Assembly (NCBI GenBank): GCA_947595925.1
Contig: CANQEV010000008.1
Location: forward strand, 1 to 64,000
DNA from: an uncultured Acetatifactor sp.
Lineage (GTDB): Bacteria > Bacillota > Clostridia > Lachnospirales > Lachnospiraceae
Reading direction: 5' to 3'
DNA: 64,000 nucleotides
The notes below the pieces were generated by a model. The model was not told the origin of the DNA. It searched no databases and saw nothing but the letters and a program-made list of their open reading frames with translations. Both the position numbers and the translations under genes were made by a program. How positions within the stretch are numbered: the stretch's first letter is position 1; each line of letters opens with the position of its first letter. Of the stretch, positions 45,326 to 52,105 are shown piece after piece.

Positions 45326-46102
45326 ATGGAAGAGAGAAAAACGAAAATTTTGGCGGTGGCCGGAAAAGGCGGGGTAGGAAAGACTTCCCTGGCGGGTACG
45401 ATCGTCCGGCTGCTGACGGAGGCATACCCGGGTAAGAGGATCCTGGCCATCGACGCCGATCCGGCGGTGGGACTGTCCGCCGTTTTGGGGATCGAGGTGG
45501 GAAAGACCATCGATGATATCCGGAAGGAAGTGATCCGAACGGTGGAGGACGGGGATACAAAGTCCGCGCTGGAACTTCTGGGCGAGGCGAAGTATGAACT
45601 CCTGGACGCCATCAGCGAACAGGACGGGTATTCCTTTATCGCCATCGGCAGGCCGGAGGCGGCAGGCTGCTACTGTAAGATCAATTCCTATTTAAAAGAA
45701 GTGATCGCCATGCTCTCCGCTCAGTACGACTATGTGGTGATCGACGGCGAGGCGGGGATCGAGCAGATCAACCGCCGGGTGATGGAGAAGGTAACGCACC
45801 TGATCTTAGTGACGGACGCCAGCAAGAAGGGCTGCCAGGTGGTTCAGACCATCAGGAAAGTTGCGGACGAGCTGGTCATGTATGAGAAGATCGGCGTGGT
45901 GGCGAACCGTCTGCCGGAGGAAAAAGTAACGGAACTCATGGATCTGGGAGGTCTTACGCTTTTGTCCGCGATCGAAGCGGATGAGGAACTTGCCGCCTAT
46001 GACGTTAAGGGTGAGAATATCTTTTATCTTCCCCGGGAGGCAAAGATCGTCAAGGGGGCGGAGAAAGCCTTAAGGAATCTGGGAATATTGACAAGTGAGT
46101 GA
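45326..46102 (+). CDS. CooC-like deviant Walker ATPase (metal-centre maturation type)
   Basis: The 258-residue MinD/CooC-class ATPase has the deviant P-loop KGGVGKTSLAG, IDADPAVGLSAVLG and GEAGIEQINRRV. It keeps the CooC-type paired cysteines in GRPEAAGCYCKINSYL (CYC), which in CooC bind Ni at the dimer interface for insertion into CO dehydrogenase. No CO dehydrogenase gene is in the window. It heads a same-strand set of dehydratase-family genes plus an acetyl-CoA-synthase-like gene, so I infer a maturation or ATP-coupled role in that system. GGGGTAAGAAG precedes the ATG. Confidence 0.8.
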   Translation: MEERKTKILAVAGKGGVGKTSLAGTIVRLLTEAYPGKRILAIDADPAVGLSAVLGIEVGKTIDDIRKEVIRTVEDGDTKSALELLGEAKYELLDAISEQDGYSFIAIGRPEAAGCYCKINSYLKEVIAMLSAQYDYVVIDGEAGIEQINRRVMEKVTHLILVTDASKKGCQVVQTIRKVADELVMYEKIGVVANRLPEEKVTELMDLGGLTLLSAIEADEELAAYDVKGENIFYLPREAKIVKGAEKALRNLGILTSE

Positions 46103-46238
46103 AGAACTTAGGTCAGCTCTCTCACGGTGAAAAAGAACTGTTTTGAACCGGTGGCTGTGTTTGACCGAGAGCAGGAGCGCATGTTTTTGAGGTACTTCAT
46201 TTTGGACTTGAGAGAAGCGAAAGGAATGGTTAGCAAAA

Positions 46239-47423
46239 TTGAAAGATCTGAAGCATCTCTATTATTTTGAAAAACTGCTGGAGGAGGCGAACCACGACCT
46301 GATCCGGGAGGCCCAGAGCCGGGGACAGATCGCCATCGGTGCCGTCTGTTTTCAGATACCGGAGCCCCTTCTGAACCTGCCGGGTTGTTTTTCCGTGAGG
46401 CTCAGGGCGCCCCGGACGGCTTCCATGGAGATGGGGACATACTACATGAGCAGTATGCTCTGTGAGGGATGCCGGGCGATTTTAGAGCGGGCCATCGAGG
46501 GCGGTTTTGAATTTCTGGACTGCATCATCGCCCCGGACGCCTGCGCCCAGATGAACCGCTGTGTGGAGAATATCGAACGGCAGAATCTCTGTACGAAGGA
46601 AAAATTCTTCGTCTCTTATGCGGATGTTCCCATGAAGGCCGACGACACGGCGCTGGAGCACTATGTGCGGCAGATGCGGGAGCATGTGCTGAAGCCCCTG
46701 GAGGAGCATTATGGGATCGATATTTCAGAGCAGGTCATGCGGGAAGCGGTGGAAACACAGAACCGGATCAGCCGGCTGATCTCTGAGATCGGGGCGTACC
46801 GCAAGGAGGAAAATCCCCGGATCACCGGCTATGAGTTTGCAGTGTTATGTACGGCGACCTACTGCAGTCCCAAGGAACTTTTGCTGGAAAAGCTGGAGGA
46901 GACGGCGGAGGAATTAAAGACCCGGGAGCCGGATGAAAAGCCCGGGTTCCGGGCAAGAGTGCTGCTGGCAGGCTCTGAGATCGACGATCCGGGCTTTATC
47001 CGTCTGGTGGAGGATGCGGGTGCGCTAGTGGTGGCGGACCGCTTCTGCTTTGGCTCCCTGCCGGGGCGAAGCGAAATCCTGCTTACGGAGAAGGAAGACG
47101 CGCTGACCCAGATCTGCCGCACTTATATGGAGTGGGGGAAATGCCCCCGGTTCATGAACACGGCGAAGATTCAGGAGCGTCAGACCTACATAGACGCCCT
47201 TGCCAAGGAGTATCACGCGGAAGGGCTGATTTACCAGCAGCTGAAGTTCTGCGATTACTGGGGTTATGAGCGGGCCTCCGCGTTTCATGTGATGCGGGAG
47301 GAGTACGGCTACCCCGTGCTGTCCCTGGACCGGCCCTATGTGGTGGGTAATTCCGGGCAGGTGAGAACCCGCGTGCAGGCTTTCGTGGAAAGCCTGGAGA
47401 TCAAGAGAGCGGGAAGAAGTTAA
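46239..47423 (+). CDS. 2-hydroxyacyl-CoA dehydratase family protein, smaller subunit
   Basis: This 394-residue protein matches the HgdB/FldC/BcrC/double-cubane family. SSMLCEGCRAILERAIEGG is the N-terminal cysteine region, followed by PDACAQMNRC, DRFCFGSLPGR and the C-terminal pattern LKFCDYWGYERASAF. QVRTRVQAFVESLE closes the fold. The cluster-ligand type cysteines (near 75/78, 102 and 338) are present, so an iron-sulfur cluster is likely. Known members dehydrate 2-hydroxyacyl-CoAs, reduce benzoyl-CoA or reduce small molecules at a double-cubane cluster. It starts at TTG 46239 after AAAGGAA; no ATG fits. Confidence 0.8.
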   Translation: MKDLKHLYYFEKLLEEANHDLIREAQSRGQIAIGAVCFQIPEPLLNLPGCFSVRLRAPRTASMEMGTYYMSSMLCEGCRAILERAIEGGFEFLDCIIAPDACAQMNRCVENIERQNLCTKEKFFVSYADVPMKADDTALEHYVRQMREHVLKPLEEHYGIDISEQVMREAVETQNRISRLISEIGAYRKEENPRITGYEFAVLCTATYCSPKELLLEKLEETAEELKTREPDEKPGFRARVLLAGSEIDDPGFIRLVEDAGALVVADRFCFGSLPGRSEILLTEKEDALTQICRTYMEWGKCPRFMNTAKIQERQTYIDALAKEYHAEGLIYQQLKFCDYWGYERASAFHVMREEYGYPVLSLDRPYVVGNSGQVRTRVQAFVESLEIKRAGRS

Positions 47424-47439
47424 GAGAAACGGAGAAAAC

Positions 47440-48978
47440 ATGGGAAAAGCAGTGGGAAGCGAGCCTCTGGGAAGGCTCTACACGGGGAAAAAGCCCCGCA
47501 GGCGCAGGGAGTGGCGCGGGTTGAAAGACACAATGTACGATTATTTCCGATGGCTGGGTTACTGGAAAACCCTGATCGGGTTTACCTTAAGCATCAATAA
47601 TATCAAGGGTTTTCTTCGCTACCGCTGGATGCTGAACTACCTCGCCATGCCGGACTATATGGACCGGCACACGGAGGGGATGCGGGGCGTACAGCTCCGC
47701 ATGGCGCACCAGGGGCTCGGGCTGATCGTGACGGACATCTGCGAGATGCTGAAGAAGATCTTCCGGGCGGACCCGGAGGTGGGCAACGACAAAGCGTTCA
47801 ACAGCAAGATCGTCCTGTTTGACGAGAACATGATGAGCACGCTGATGGGCGGTTTTCCGAATCTGATCTGGCTTTCTGTGGAAGTGCCGGCGGTGTATAC
47901 CTGTTCCATGCTGAACCAGACCGGTGTGACCTATTATGTGGAGAAGACCCAGGAGTACGGCGTGCCCTCGGATGTCTGCCCTATGCCCGCGGCGGAGCTT
48001 GGGGTCACGCTTGCGGACGACTTCCCGCTGATCGGAAAGTGCGCGGTACAGTGCAACACCACCTGCGACGGAAGCCTGATGGGGAACGGGATGGAGGCCA
48101 GGAGTTTTAAGATACCCACCTTCCAGCTGGCGGTTCCCATCCGCCACAGACAGGAGAGCGTGCAGGAGTACGCCGCAAAGGAGGTTCTGAACGCCATTCA
48201 CTTTATCGAGGAACAGACGGGGGAGACTTTCGACTGGAATGCCTTTTTCGACAGCATGAAACGCTTTAACGCCGAGACCCGGGAATTTCTGGAGTGGATG
48301 GATCTCTCAAAGACGGATTATCCCCAGATGATGGGGGTGACGCTGGCGCTCTACCGGTACGGCGTGTACCAGGCGGCCGGCGGCAGGAACCAGGCGTTCC
48401 TGGATATGGATAAGAAGCTGACAAAGCTGGCCATGAAAGGCTGGCAGGAGAAGCAGATGGCGGCGAAAGAATACCGTCACAGGTGCATGACCTGGGGCGT
48501 GCAGGCGGCGTATTACACCGCCCTGCCGATCTGGCTCATGAACTGCTGGGGAATCGTCCCCATCGCGGATATGCTGACCACTGTGTCCACGGAGATGGTG
48601 AATACGGAGGACAAGGACCAGGCTCTGCTCGACCTGGCGTACCTCTATGAAAATATGATCATGAGAAACCGTTCCAACGGCGGCTATGAGACCGGCGTGG
48701 AGGCCCTGTTCTCCTACTGTGAACAGCTCAGGATCGACATGGTCATCATGTATGTGCACATGGGCTGCAAGGCCATGTCCGGCTATCACGGTCTTTTTGA
48801 GGAAGAGGCCAGGAAACGGGGGATCCACTGGATCTGGGTAACACATAACCTGATGTGTCCTCAGGACGGTTCCCGCCGGGATATGCGCATGGAGATCAAC
48901 CGCTACATGCGCACGGTGCTCCGGGAGGAACCGCTGGATCCCTCGCTGGAGGATTTCGACGATTCTGAGAACTGGTAA
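47440..48978 (+). CDS. 2-hydroxyacyl-CoA dehydratase family protein, larger subunit
   Basis: This 512-residue protein begins 17 bases after its partner gene and belongs to the same family. CAVQCNTTCDGSLMGNG lies near residue 200, VIMYVHMGCKAMSGYHGLFE near 440, and a C-terminal segment RDMRMEINRYMRTVLREEP matches the family's closing helix. It carries an N-terminal extension of about 100 residues absent from HgdA/B-type proteins. Together with the previous protein it should form the heterodimer acted on by the activator ATPase downstream. No CoA-transferase gene is nearby, so a CoA-ester substrate is not implied. The coding end is partly duplicated 66 bases on. Confidence 0.75.
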   Translation: MGKAVGSEPLGRLYTGKKPRRRREWRGLKDTMYDYFRWLGYWKTLIGFTLSINNIKGFLRYRWMLNYLAMPDYMDRHTEGMRGVQLRMAHQGLGLIVTDICEMLKKIFRADPEVGNDKAFNSKIVLFDENMMSTLMGGFPNLIWLSVEVPAVYTCSMLNQTGVTYYVEKTQEYGVPSDVCPMPAAELGVTLADDFPLIGKCAVQCNTTCDGSLMGNGMEARSFKIPTFQLAVPIRHRQESVQEYAAKEVLNAIHFIEEQTGETFDWNAFFDSMKRFNAETREFLEWMDLSKTDYPQMMGVTLALYRYGVYQAAGGRNQAFLDMDKKLTKLAMKGWQEKQMAAKEYRHRCMTWGVQAAYYTALPIWLMNCWGIVPIADMLTTVSTEMVNTEDKDQALLDLAYLYENMIMRNRSNGGYETGVEALFSYCEQLRIDMVIMYVHMGCKAMSGYHGLFEEEARKRGIHWIWVTHNLMCPQDGSRRDMRMEINRYMRTVLREEPLDPSLEDFDDSENW

Positions 48979-49052
48979 GGCGGCGCGGAAAGGCGAGGCT
49001 GCTCTTTCAGGGTTTCCGATTTCGACGATTCCGGGCACTGGTAAGGTTGTGC
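48952..49052 (+). repeat. Duplicated 3' end of the larger dehydratase-family gene
   Basis: GATTTCGACGATTC...ACTGGTAAGG at 48952-48980 recurs at 49018-49046, 66 bases later, stop codon included. The rest of the 332-base gap (to 49310) has a repeated TATCGGGTTTRAA word (near 49156 and 49193), a small CCCGTAACGGG palindrome, and no gene. Confidence 0.65.
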
Positions 49053-49310
49053 GTTAGAGAGTTCAGCCTTCCAGAGTACCTTATGGTACCTGTCCTGGTT
49101 GGTTTTGTGGGATCCCAGCAGAAACGATCCGGCAATTAGTAAAAATCTATGGCGGATATCGGGTTTAAAATATGAAAAATCCCGTAACGGGTATCGGGTT
49201 TGAAAGACCGCGCTGAGTACGGGCGCAATCTCATAGTCCAGGAAGATACCGGGTTGGACGAAGCGGGACAGAAAACAGATAACAGTTGACTGTATGCAAG
49301 GAGAGAGAAG

Positions 49311-50102
49311 ATGGGAAAATATTTTGGCGGATGTGATATCGGCAGTACCTATACAAAGTGCATGATCCTGGACGAGGCAGGGAATATCGTTGCCAGCGTG
49401 ACAAACCGCAGCAGGATCAACCCTGTGCTCAGTGCCCAGGACGCCCTGAACGAGGTGGTGGCCCAGGTTCCGGATCTGGACAAACCGGAGGATCTGGCGT
49501 ATTTGATCGGTACCGGCTACGGGCGGAACAAGGTGCCCTTTGCGGATGAAAATATCTCGGAGATCAGCTGCCACGCCATGGGCGTGCATGTGACGGATCC
49601 TTCCGTAAAGGCGATCATCGATATCGGCGGACAGGATGTTAAAGGTATCGCCATCGACAGCGACGGCACGGTGCTGAATTTTGCCATGAACGATAAGTGC
49701 GCGGCCGGGACGGGGCGTTTTTTCGAGTCCATGGCCAGAGCTTTTGAGATGAGCCTGGAAGAGTTTTCCAACCTTTCCCTCTCCGCAAAGAATGTGATCC
49801 CTATCACCGCCCAGTGCGCGGTGTTTGCGGAGAGCGAGGTGATATCCCTTGTGGGCGAGGGAAAGCCAATGGATGAGATCGCGGCGGGGATTCAGCTCTC
49901 CGTGGCGAAGCGCTGTTTTGTGATGGCGAAAAAAGCGGGGGTCACGGACTCCGTCACCCTGACCGGCGGCTGCGCGAAGAACGAGGGCCTGAAGCGGGCC
50001 ATTGAAAAGGTCCTGAAGGTCAAGGTCGTGGATCTGAAGACGGATCCCCAGCTGATGGGAGCCCTTGGCGCGGCGGAGTATGCCAGACGAAAAGCGAGCT
50101 GA
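49311..50102 (+). CDS. Acyl-CoA dehydratase activase (BadF/BadG/HgdC-type ATPase)
   Basis: This 263-residue protein is an ASKHA-fold ATPase with GCDIGSTYTKCMILD as phosphate loop 1, DIGGQDVKGIAID as loop 2, and TGGCAKNEGLKRAIEK as the adenosine motif. Two cysteines that bind the bridging [4Fe-4S] cluster of the homodimer are in place: NDKCAAGTGRF and TAQCAVFAESEV. These activators use ATP hydrolysis to push one electron to the dehydratase-family partner. Length and residues are those of a functional HgdC-like protein. CAAGGAGAGAGAAG precedes the ATG. Confidence 0.93.
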   Translation: MGKYFGGCDIGSTYTKCMILDEAGNIVASVTNRSRINPVLSAQDALNEVVAQVPDLDKPEDLAYLIGTGYGRNKVPFADENISEISCHAMGVHVTDPSVKAIIDIGGQDVKGIAIDSDGTVLNFAMNDKCAAGTGRFFESMARAFEMSLEEFSNLSLSAKNVIPITAQCAVFAESEVISLVGEGKPMDEIAAGIQLSVAKRCFVMAKKAGVTDSVTLTGGCAKNEGLKRAIEKVLKVKVVDLKTDPQLMGALGAAEYARRKAS

Positions 50103-50175
50103 CGCTGAAAACAGGAAACTTTTGACAAGGGATGGATGAGTAGGCCGGTGTTTGCAGGATAACAAGGCAGGACAA

Positions 50176-50375
50176 CCCGGCACAAAACAACGCGGGACCG
50201 CAAGGCACAAAACAACGCGGGACCGCAAGGCACAAAACAAGGCAGGACAGCAAGGCACAGAACAACGCGGGACCGCAAGGCACAGAACAAGGCGGAACAA
50301 CAAGACACAGAATAAGGCGAGACAACAAGGCATATAGCAAGACAGGATCACAAGGCATATAACATGGCGGGACGG
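50176..50375. repeat. 25-bp tandem repeat, eight units
   Basis: Eight consecutive 25-base units start at 50176, 50201, 50226, 50251, 50276, 50301, 50326 and 50351. The consensus is CAAGGCACARAACAACGCGG plus GACCG; units 2 and 4 differ at one base, and later units drift. There are no unique spacers, so it is a minisatellite and not a CRISPR array. The unit length is not a multiple of three. It lies between the activator gene and the small membrane protein gene. Confidence 0.9.
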
Positions 50376-50440
50376 GCAGGCGGCATGGATGCGTCAGAAG
50401 TCTGATCTACGGAAAAACCGGGAAAGGGAAAAGAACGGAT

Positions 50441-50653
50441 ATGATCGTTTTGAAGATACTGGGAATTATTTTTAGCATAGTTGTCATTCTTTTTGTGGTA
50501 ACCTTTGTCATCTATTTTTTCAATTTGGACATGAAGCTGATGGCGCTGCTGATCAAACCCATGACCAAATTTTACGACTGGTCCAAGGCCAGACGGGATG
50601 CGAAGAAGTTGAAAGAGCGAGAAAAGGCTGGGGCGGAAAAGGCAGAATCGTAA
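50441..50653 (+). CDS. Small membrane protein, unknown function
   Basis: This 70-residue protein has one long hydrophobic stretch (residues 3-27, LKILGIIFSIVVILFVVTFV and on). An amphipathic segment and a Lys/Glu/Ala-rich tail that looks helical and cytoplasmic follow. I do not recognise a family. It starts 338 bases after the activator gene and ends 24 bases before the acetyl-CoA-synthase-like gene, so it could anchor that protein or the reductase at the membrane; this is inference from position only. Confidence 0.6.
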   Translation: MIVLKILGIIFSIVVILFVVTFVIYFFNLDMKLMALLIKPMTKFYDWSKARRDAKKLKEREKAGAEKAES

Positions 50654-50676
50654 AAGACCAAACAAAGGAGGCCGCA

Positions 50677-51405
50677 ATGTACCTGTGCGACAGGGATATT
50701 TCAATGTGTAAAGAATTGCTGGAGAAGGGATGTCCTAGCAGGCTGCCCGCCGCACAGGGCTGGAAATGTACGGATCAGGAGGCCCTGGTGCTCCGCTCCG
50801 ACATGGCTTACGAGCTGGGCGGCGGTACAAAAGCGGCGGTGAGCGGGCTGGGCTTTACCACGGACAGCGCTCTTGTGCCCGAAAACGGCGTGTTTTTGAT
50901 TGGGCCGGATCTTCCCGAGATTCGGGAGGATGTATCCTACGCAAGGATTACGCTGCTTAGACTGGATGATGTGGAGGAAGAGGATCCCCAGCAGCTGTAC
51001 GCCATCCTTCGAAAGCTGGAATATATCAGGTACCGAATCTATCCCGAGGGATATATGATGCGGATCTCCGCGGTGAAGGAGAGAGAGCCGGTCCGCATCT
51101 CCAGGGAAGCCCTGGGTGAGGGCATGGATTTTGCGAAGGTGGGGGCCTGTTTTGCGGGGCAGTACGCCAAAGATCCCCGGGTAAAAGCGGTTCAGACTTA
51201 TTTTGTCACCGATCCGCGCGCGGATTACGGAGCGCTGCGGAGCTATGCCCGCCGTTTTGAGCAGATCACGGAATCTCTGAACCTGGTATTTCAGGGCATT
51301 TCCATGGACTGCAGCACCTGCGGCCAGAGGGAGCTCTGTGAGGAGATCGACGGCCTGAAGGAATTACATCAAAATGTCACGGGAAAAATAACCAATCATA
51401 TGTAA
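50677..51405 (+). CDS. Short protein resembling the central domain of acetyl-CoA synthase (CdhC/AcsB-like)
   Basis: In this 242-residue protein, residues 70-215 follow the central domain of CO dehydrogenase/acetyl-CoA synthase beta subunits: VFLIGPDLPEI, a segment with MMRISAVKEREPVRIS, then EGMDFAKVGACFAGQY, and RVKAVQTYFVTDPRADY. The A-cluster domain with its SCGCFE motif is missing; instead a short C-terminus has CSTCGQRELC (CxxC-x5-C) that may bind an iron-sulfur cluster. N-terminal cysteines at 4, 11, 19 and 31 are also notable. CAAAGGAGG precedes the ATG. The link to synthase is by recalled pattern only, so function is uncertain. Confidence 0.55.
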   Translation: MYLCDRDISMCKELLEKGCPSRLPAAQGWKCTDQEALVLRSDMAYELGGGTKAAVSGLGFTTDSALVPENGVFLIGPDLPEIREDVSYARITLLRLDDVEEEDPQQLYAILRKLEYIRYRIYPEGYMMRISAVKEREPVRISREALGEGMDFAKVGACFAGQYAKDPRVKAVQTYFVTDPRADYGALRSYARRFEQITESLNLVFQGISMDCSTCGQRELCEEIDGLKELHQNVTGKITNHM

Positions 51406-51493: not shown

Positions 51494-52105
51494 ATGTCTT
51501 TTCATTCACAGAAAATCTATGCTTTTCATCCATTCAAATTATACGGGCAGGAGATTTTCAGTGAAGAGAGACATGCGGTACCCCTTTATCTCCTGCGGAA
51601 TGAGACCGGGGAGGAGTTTACAGATCTCTTGGAGATCCAAGTGATTGAGCTGAATAAGGCGCTGAGCGGCAGGGACCGGATGGATGACTGGATCACGCTG
51701 TTCAACGCGGAGACGGAGGAGGATCTGAAGATGCTGGAAGCAAAGACGAAAAATCCGGGAATTTTAGAAGCGATCAAAGAGGTCAGACTGATGGGCTTGG
51801 GAAGAGCGTTGAAGGCGGTGTATGACGATCATATGAAGCAGATCCGGGATCAGAATGCCCGGGATGATTATGTGAGGGAAGAGGGAAGAACTGCGGGAAA
51901 GATGGAAGGAAAAGCGGAAGGAAAAGCAGAAGGAAAAGCCGAGGATATCCTGGAGTTATTGGAAGAATTAGGTCCTGTGCCCAGTGAGATAAGGGAGAAG
52001 ATCTGCGGCATTACGGATCTTGAGGATCTGAGGAAACTGTTGAAACTTGCGGCGAAAGCAAATTCGTTGGAGGAGTTTGAAAAAAATTATGAAAAACAAA
52101 CTTAA
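51494..52105 (+). CDS. Rpn/PD-(D/E)XK transposase-family protein, N-terminally truncated
   Basis: This 203-residue protein matches only the C-terminal half of the Rpn-type recombination-promoting nuclease family. Residues from FTDLLEIQVIELNKALSG, through VRLMGLGRALKAVYDDHM, to a charged GKMEGKAEGKAEGKAED repeat and a final helical tail are typical. The N-terminal nuclease core with its catalytic Asp/Glu-x-Lys residues is absent, and the first 35 residues look degraded. It is most likely a remnant, although it has a promoter. The 12-base GGAAAAGCAGAA-type repeat produces the GKAE tract. Confidence 0.65.
   Translation: MSFHSQKIYAFHPFKLYGQEIFSEERHAVPLYLLRNETGEEFTDLLEIQVIELNKALSGRDRMDDWITLFNAETEEDLKMLEAKTKNPGILEAIKEVRLMGLGRALKAVYDDHMKQIRDQNARDDYVREEGRTAGKMEGKAEGKAEGKAEDILELLEELGPVPSEIREKICGITDLEDLRKLLKLAAKANSLEEFEKNYEKQT

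Follow-up and report, generated by a model that had tools for sequence, protein, structure and literature searches.

Very low potentials are the working range of double-cubane and class I benzoyl-CoA reductase (BCR) enzymes, whose cluster is related to those of nitrogenase. In the Bzd type of class I BCR (BzdNOPQ; 8s02), as described in the accessible part of PMC11971306, which also bears on the kinship with nitrogenase clusters, a double-cubane subunit is joined by a three-cysteine [4Fe-4S] subunit and a BcrAD-type activase. The same components align at a locus in the window, a stretch of 64,000 nucleotides from an uncultured Acetatifactor sp. (Lachnospiraceae; contig CANQEV010000008.1, forward strand). 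This locus (45326..51405) differs from the Bzd type in lying far below the BzdN cut-off, in the longer N-terminal part and the lineage-specific cysteines of its large subunit, in the single activase of the window lineage, and in the addition of a CooC-like ATPase, a short protein related to acetyl-CoA synthase (ACS) and a membrane protein. With DCCP/DCCP-R it shares a six-cysteine [8Fe-9S] site and a single activase, but it has two unlike subunits, the second with only three ligand positions. We class the locus as a variant of the class I BCR/double-cubane reductases that lies outside every curated subfamily. We read it, at about even confidence, as a two-cluster ATP-driven reductase of this type with a dedicated accessory pair, the CooC-like ATPase and the ACS fragment. 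No description of such a module was found in the literature searched, most subscription journals being outside its reach.

The reductase core is a pair of HGD-D proteins. The small subunit, hgdS (46239..47423, plus strand, 394 aa, double-cubane type), starts at a TTG codon, with the same first residue in most relatives, and is followed by the large, BzdO-like subunit, hgdL (47440..48978, plus strand, 512 aa); their Pfam HGD-D scores by hmmscan are 293 and 132 bits. Among solved structures, the hgdS profile finds BzdN nearest, followed by HadC and DCCP, and the hgdL profile matches MbdO, BzdO and DCCP. The accessible part of PMC11971306 gives the double-cubane ligands of BzdN as Cys36/73/100/263/293/327, and in the structure-profile alignment hgdS C37, C75, C102, C270, C302 and C338 fall on them. 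All six columns are Cys in 36/36 aligned relatives and in 29/29 subunits of other lineages. An earlier note on this DNA had pointed to small-subunit cysteines at 75/78, 102 and 338; these are present, but C37, C270 and C302, which complete the set, had been overlooked. In hgdL, C180 and C443 fall on the BzdO [4Fe-4S] ligands Cys95 and Cys380, the C443 match lying in a low-scoring extra stretch, and C209, at a CC pair, is one residue off BzdO Cys128 in the printed alignment. The three positions are all Cys in 30/30 aligned relatives and 29/29 proteins of other lineages; in the wider hgdL set (n=53) the C443 region is missing from one truncated row. Ahead of the aligned part, hgdL carries ~85 residues more than BzdO. 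A second metal site formed by its extra cysteines was considered and rejected: C201, C205 and C369 are kept in 45/53, 38/53 and 52/53 rows, and in 1, 2 and 0 of 29 in other lineages.

Neither subunit reaches a curated cut-off of BzdN, DCCP, BcrC or Had. The BzdN equivalog TIGR03190 gives 107.8 bits at the hgdS-hgdL locus against a cut-off of 453.8, the DCCP equivalog NF040772 gives 146.7 and 45.5 bits against 350, and the HadB and HadC equivalogs NF052455 and NF052456 give 22 bits (cut-off 750) and 81 bits (cut-off 700). Judged by sequence, hgdS-hgdL is a pair of BzdNO architecture on a separate branch. The activase (49311..50102, plus strand, 263 aa) belongs to the HgdC/HadI/MbdQ family of ATP-dependent electron donors, scoring 194 bits for BcrAD_BadFG and 218 bits for TIGR00241, over the cut-off of 125.4. 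Its best solved relatives are MbdQ (E 1e-59), HadI and HgdC, and in both alignments shown, against MbdQ and HadI, the two cluster cysteines recognized in the earlier note are kept. That note had also proposed an ATP-driven, double-cubane-like reductase, metal-dependent and acting on a small molecule or a metal centre; the six aligned BzdN ligands and the activase bear out the first part of this proposal.

The accessory pair recalls the nickel enzymes. The CooC-like ATPase (45326..46102, plus strand, 258 aa) is a CbiA/ArsA-type P-loop protein by hmmscan that contains KGGVGKT and a GCYC metal-site motif (C115, C117), features it shares with the nickel-loading ATPases CooC1 and AcsF. Of the solved structures, CooC1 (3kje) matches its profile best (E 3e-19), with CYC aligned, so that the CXC metal motif, the P-loop and the nearest relative all agree with a CooC-type protein. 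C115 and C117 are present in 37/37 aligned window-lineage rows. The window-lineage proteins branch apart from six sampled CooCs of CO dehydrogenase (CODH) loci (support 99). CODH has no match in 19 of the 24 family genomes that carry hgdL, the window's being one of the 19, and is present in the other five. A Wood-Ljungdahl locus was rejected, no CODH having been found in the window's genome.

The 242-aa protein (50677..51405, plus strand) comprises an ACS central domain and a C-x2-C-x5-C tail. Its CdhC score, 23.9 bits, is just under the cut-off of 24, and profile and fold comparisons both find the central-domain fold that the earlier note had suspected, so that the relationship to ACS is firm. 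Like CdhC/AcsB, it has three Cys near the A-cluster cysteine positions; it differs in being about one third as long and in lacking a full A-cluster (four Fe-S Cys plus CGC), since it stops before the CGC region. The position of the fourth A-cluster Cys holds His in 42/47 aligned rows. This C-terminal His, H231, was rejected as a required fourth ligand, as other lineages mostly have Arg there.

The gene company is conserved. Among 299 genomes of the window's family, hgdL occurs in 24 and an ACS-type match in 26, and the short ACS fragment is found in exactly the same 24 genomes as hgdL (Fisher p 6e-36); the two further matches are true ACS frames of 718-726 aa in genomes with no hgdL match. The worry raised in the earlier note, that the genes might not be conserved together, is thus not borne out. 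In 23 of the 24 positive genomes the fragment lies within ~4 kb of hgdL on the same contig, G094 and G294 each having one contig-edge partner; in G199 the two are on different contigs. A scan of named genomes gave 369 stretches with hgdL relatives, and of the best 80 (the named loci) 52 hold all five larger genes, the activase in every case, 14 hold hgdS-hgdL only and 14 hold other subsets, mostly cut by contig ends. The fragment is nevertheless present in 21/21 tested genomes of named loci, including all 14 with a pair-only locus, where it lies elsewhere in the genome. On the hgdL tree, for which dereplication left 53 of 102 rows, at least five changes are needed to explain the pair-only state. 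In 8/24 genomes there are two or more hgdL places, at most four, and in 22/24 a single fragment place; in total there are 37 hgdL and 26 fragment places, some of both being contig-edge or weak pieces. Several hgdL places per fragment place are expected if the accessories are shared. As a separate observation, one cooC gene stands beside two different hgdS-hgdL pairs at L107, L112 and L113, which suggests two reductases on one accessory set.

The partnership extends beyond the family. Of 398 phylum genomes, 53 were matched by the fragment profile, and the window's alone gave a full hgdL match. Besides the window's, the sole clear short copy is a 245-aa frame in G527 (126 bits); of the remaining places, 48 fall within frames of 712-784 aa, as for ACS itself, and four within frames of 412-492 aa. 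At the G527 locus (L140), the fragment and CooC are accompanied by a double-cubane-type and an O-type subunit, a pair of activases and two acyl-CoA-dehydrogenase-like genes. In the class of G527 (the second class), 22/97 genomes matched, with six short copies; activase and CooC adjoin all six and reductase genes four, and in the other two cases the contig starts inside the activases or shortly ahead of them. For L074, a record titled Spirochaetae, the search of its phylum gave matches in 20/296 genomes at E 1e-15. The 19 Spirochaetota regions read come from 18 genomes, with G1078 (a contig-edge piece) and the genome of L074 itself left out, and fragment, CooC, activase and reductase subunits are present in 19/19. 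Across the second class and Spirochaetota, CooC lies ≤300 bp from the fragment in 24/26 cases and the activase is present at 25/25 loci; most of these loci carry two activases side by side, as in BzdPQ. The CXC motif is kept in 6/6 second-class and 19/19 Spirochaetota proteins, three of the latter having CFC. With the second class added, the CooC tree places both lineages on one side of a branch (support 94, not decisive). A single clade apart from the CODH CooCs is favoured in this sequence comparison, but the AU test rejects neither of two alternatives (p-AU about 0.2). The gene set, cluster ligands, fold and gene company across the three lineages are all read from sequence.

From family membership and gene company we infer the electron path, the maturation role, the membrane tether, the metal and the substrate, as follows. 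A reduced ferredoxin-type donor would load the [4Fe-4S] cluster of the activase, and ATP hydrolysis would drive the electron onto the double cubane ([8Fe-9S]) in hgdS. Next to receive it would be the three-cysteine [4Fe-4S] cluster in hgdL, the place at which a recalcitrant substrate, unsaturated or aromatic, would be reduced; this path, activase to double cubane to [4Fe-4S], is expected because of family membership. The CooC-like ATPase and the ACS fragment would form a maturation module, a role suggested by their conserved gene company, chaperone/client kinship and copy number. CooC may take a metal at its CYC motif and, with the help of ATP, hand it over to the fragment's C-x2-C-x5-C site, in which case the old pairing of CooC-type ATPase as chaperone and ACS as client would have been retained. 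The fragment may then deliver the metal to the reductase or remodel its cluster, and the one-helix membrane protein may tether the complex in the window lineage.

Several points weigh against this reading. Characterised BzdNO and DCCP have, to our knowledge, no known need of CooC- or ACS-type partners, and G458 has a BzdNO-like pair with an activase (L141) while no short ACS fragment was found in its genome. Among the five larger proteins, the fragment shows the lowest conservation against locus L028, and a profile search of 25 loci in other lineages found no membrane gene. Nickel is a guess from family kinship, and a simple nickel account meets the difficulty that HypA has no match over cut-off in the window's genome, one of five among the 24 positive genomes in which it is absent or under cut-off. 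G036 carries, on the same contig as L069, a second hgdS-hgdL-fragment set (L021) for which the stretch read shows neither CooC nor activase, and in L153 there are two fragments; both cases are easier to reconcile with a subunit than with a shared maturase.

They point to a serious rival, considerably less probable than the accessory reading, in which the ACS fragment is a third reductase subunit that either carries a cluster loaded by CooC, Ni-Fe-S or plain Fe-S, or binds the CoA moiety of a CoA-thioester substrate. The fragment directly follows hgdL in L071 (contig-limited), and acyl-CoA-dehydrogenase-like genes are neighbours in the second class. Moreover, R140 of the window protein, Arg in 47/47 rows, aligns with ACS R429, which we take to participate in CoA binding. 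Against a subunit role stand the usually single copy of the fragment, beside up to four hgdL places, and its absence from the vicinity of the 14 hgdS-hgdL-only loci.

Two further alternatives are both unlikely, and to about the same degree. In the first, the reductase targets a metal centre: hgdS-hgdL and the activase would reductively activate the ACS-like protein, in the manner of RACo, a reductive activator of a Co centre, or of the MCR activation complex. In the sampled family genomes hgdL never occurs without the fragment (24 of 24), and for the Ni centre of MCR an ATP-driven activating complex has been described (PMC12176620, accessible part). Several reductase pairs per single fragment argue against such a role, and the acyl-CoA-dehydrogenase-like, GMC oxidoreductase, Oxidored_FMN and IsrA-like neighbours indicate small organic molecules instead. 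In the second, the CooC-like ATPase serves as another electron donor, comparable to NifH, BchL or CfbC, and holds a cluster at its CYC motif. It does belong to the same P-loop superfamily, and its L140 homologue gives weak, sub-cut-off CfbC, BchL and NifH matches, but CooC1 is the best solved match and the donor role is already filled by the activase at all five-gene loci. An ordinary 2-hydroxyacyl-CoA dehydratase with its CoA-transferase elsewhere shares the Pfam families but is very improbable given the HadB and HadC scores and the lack of Cys in HadC at the columns of hgdS C37 and C270. An amino-acid-fermentation dehydratase was rejected on these results and on the search of the window's genome, in which no HGD-D copies beyond hgdS and hgdL were found. 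The earlier note had set aside both this and a Wood-Ljungdahl locus, rightly on present evidence, and its concern that the HGD-D proteins might group with a known dehydratase is not borne out by the curated dehydratase cut-offs, which neither protein reaches.

Returning to the accessory reading, that reductase, CooC and ACS fragment keep company in distant bacteria too points to an accessory system, so far unrecognised, for these very strong reductants. A bolder version, which we hold only tentatively, is that the ACS-derived domain and its dedicated CooC insert nickel or another heterometal into double-cubane/BCR-type enzymes. A large cross-phylum branch would then consist of nickel-containing or heterometal-modified reductases that have gone unrecognised as such. 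If the module is indeed of nickel-enzyme pedigree, maturation and metal content become testable in gut Lachnospiraceae and spirochaetes, and it may indicate unrecognised anaerobic reductions in the gut.

The five larger genes and the small membrane gene all lie on the plus strand, as the earlier note had described them. Against L028 the five have dN/dS of 0.03-0.12, which indicates purifying selection, and L027, a record of an uncultured Acetatifactor sp., holds a near-identical locus. Among cultured bacteria, a Pseudobutyrivibrio strain has the locus as well. The window's genome comprises 77 contigs and 2.64 Mb and is 97% complete. The membrane protein (50441..50653, plus strand, 70 aa) has a single hydrophobic stretch followed by YFFNLDMKL-like residues and may act as a membrane tether in the window lineage. 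Its profile found 81 copies, matching at 62/80 named loci and 16/20 further window-lineage loci, which supports its inclusion in the set. The gene follows the activase (66) or hgdL (15) within 1.5 kb on the same strand. Of the 52 five-gene loci, L053 alone has no profile match, and a tblastn match is found there; the gene is also present in 5/14 pair-only loci. Between it and the activase lies a 25-bp tandem repeat (minisatellite) of 8.5 copies (50161..50373, plus strand). Promoter-like sites are near chance level (5 vs 3.9), and terminator-like sites number 12 vs 6.0, seven of them on the minus strand and all of these within genes.

Among the neighbouring genes, a flavoprotein that combines NAD(P)/FAD domains, several Fe-S domains and a pair of CxC motifs stands at 23/80 loci. 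It is found in 18/24 positive and 2/15 negative family genomes, the latter hand-picked from those listed (Fisher p 2e-4), with no match in the window's genome; it is associated with the locus and not essential. HypA, at 13/80 named loci and over cut-off in 19/24 positive genomes, the window's not among them, was rejected as a core part. It tracks the flavoprotein, which is present in 18/19 HypA-bearing genomes and 0/5 others. The flavoprotein resembles IsrA, a putative isoprene reductase with HypA neighbours according to the accessible part of PMC10134865: by comparison with that text, it shares the kinds of domain and the two CxC motifs, and HypA often lies nearby. L110 carries a 684-aa Oxidored_FMN enzyme, and similar open reading frames (ORFs) begin in L107 and L112. 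Together with the IsrA-like flavoprotein, these hint at unsaturated organic substrates.

In the other lineages, a 390-594-aa protein stands next to the double-cubane subunit at second-class and Spirochaetota loci (L140:14186-15970, L153:1791-3263, L154:14248-15714, L166:3147-4319); the four tested have no Pfam match, and the protein is perhaps a further component. Spirochaetota loci also have GMC oxidoreductases (three tested) and, by eye, a TetR-like ORF as neighbours. The large subunit of L032, a horse-faeces record under the title Treponema sp., is 83% identical to the window's, which reflects either a recent transfer or a mis-binned contig. Small His-rich proteins by the clusters (L024:7615-7875, L116:7822-8184) are possible metal chaperones, and TIR-plus-Sel1 proteins lie between the cooC and activase genes at L024:9756-11738 and L025:2599-5556. 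Just downstream of the window's locus, a PD-(D/E)XK transposase-type ORF (51494-52105), shorter than the 338-aa copy in L015, places a mobile element near the locus edge.

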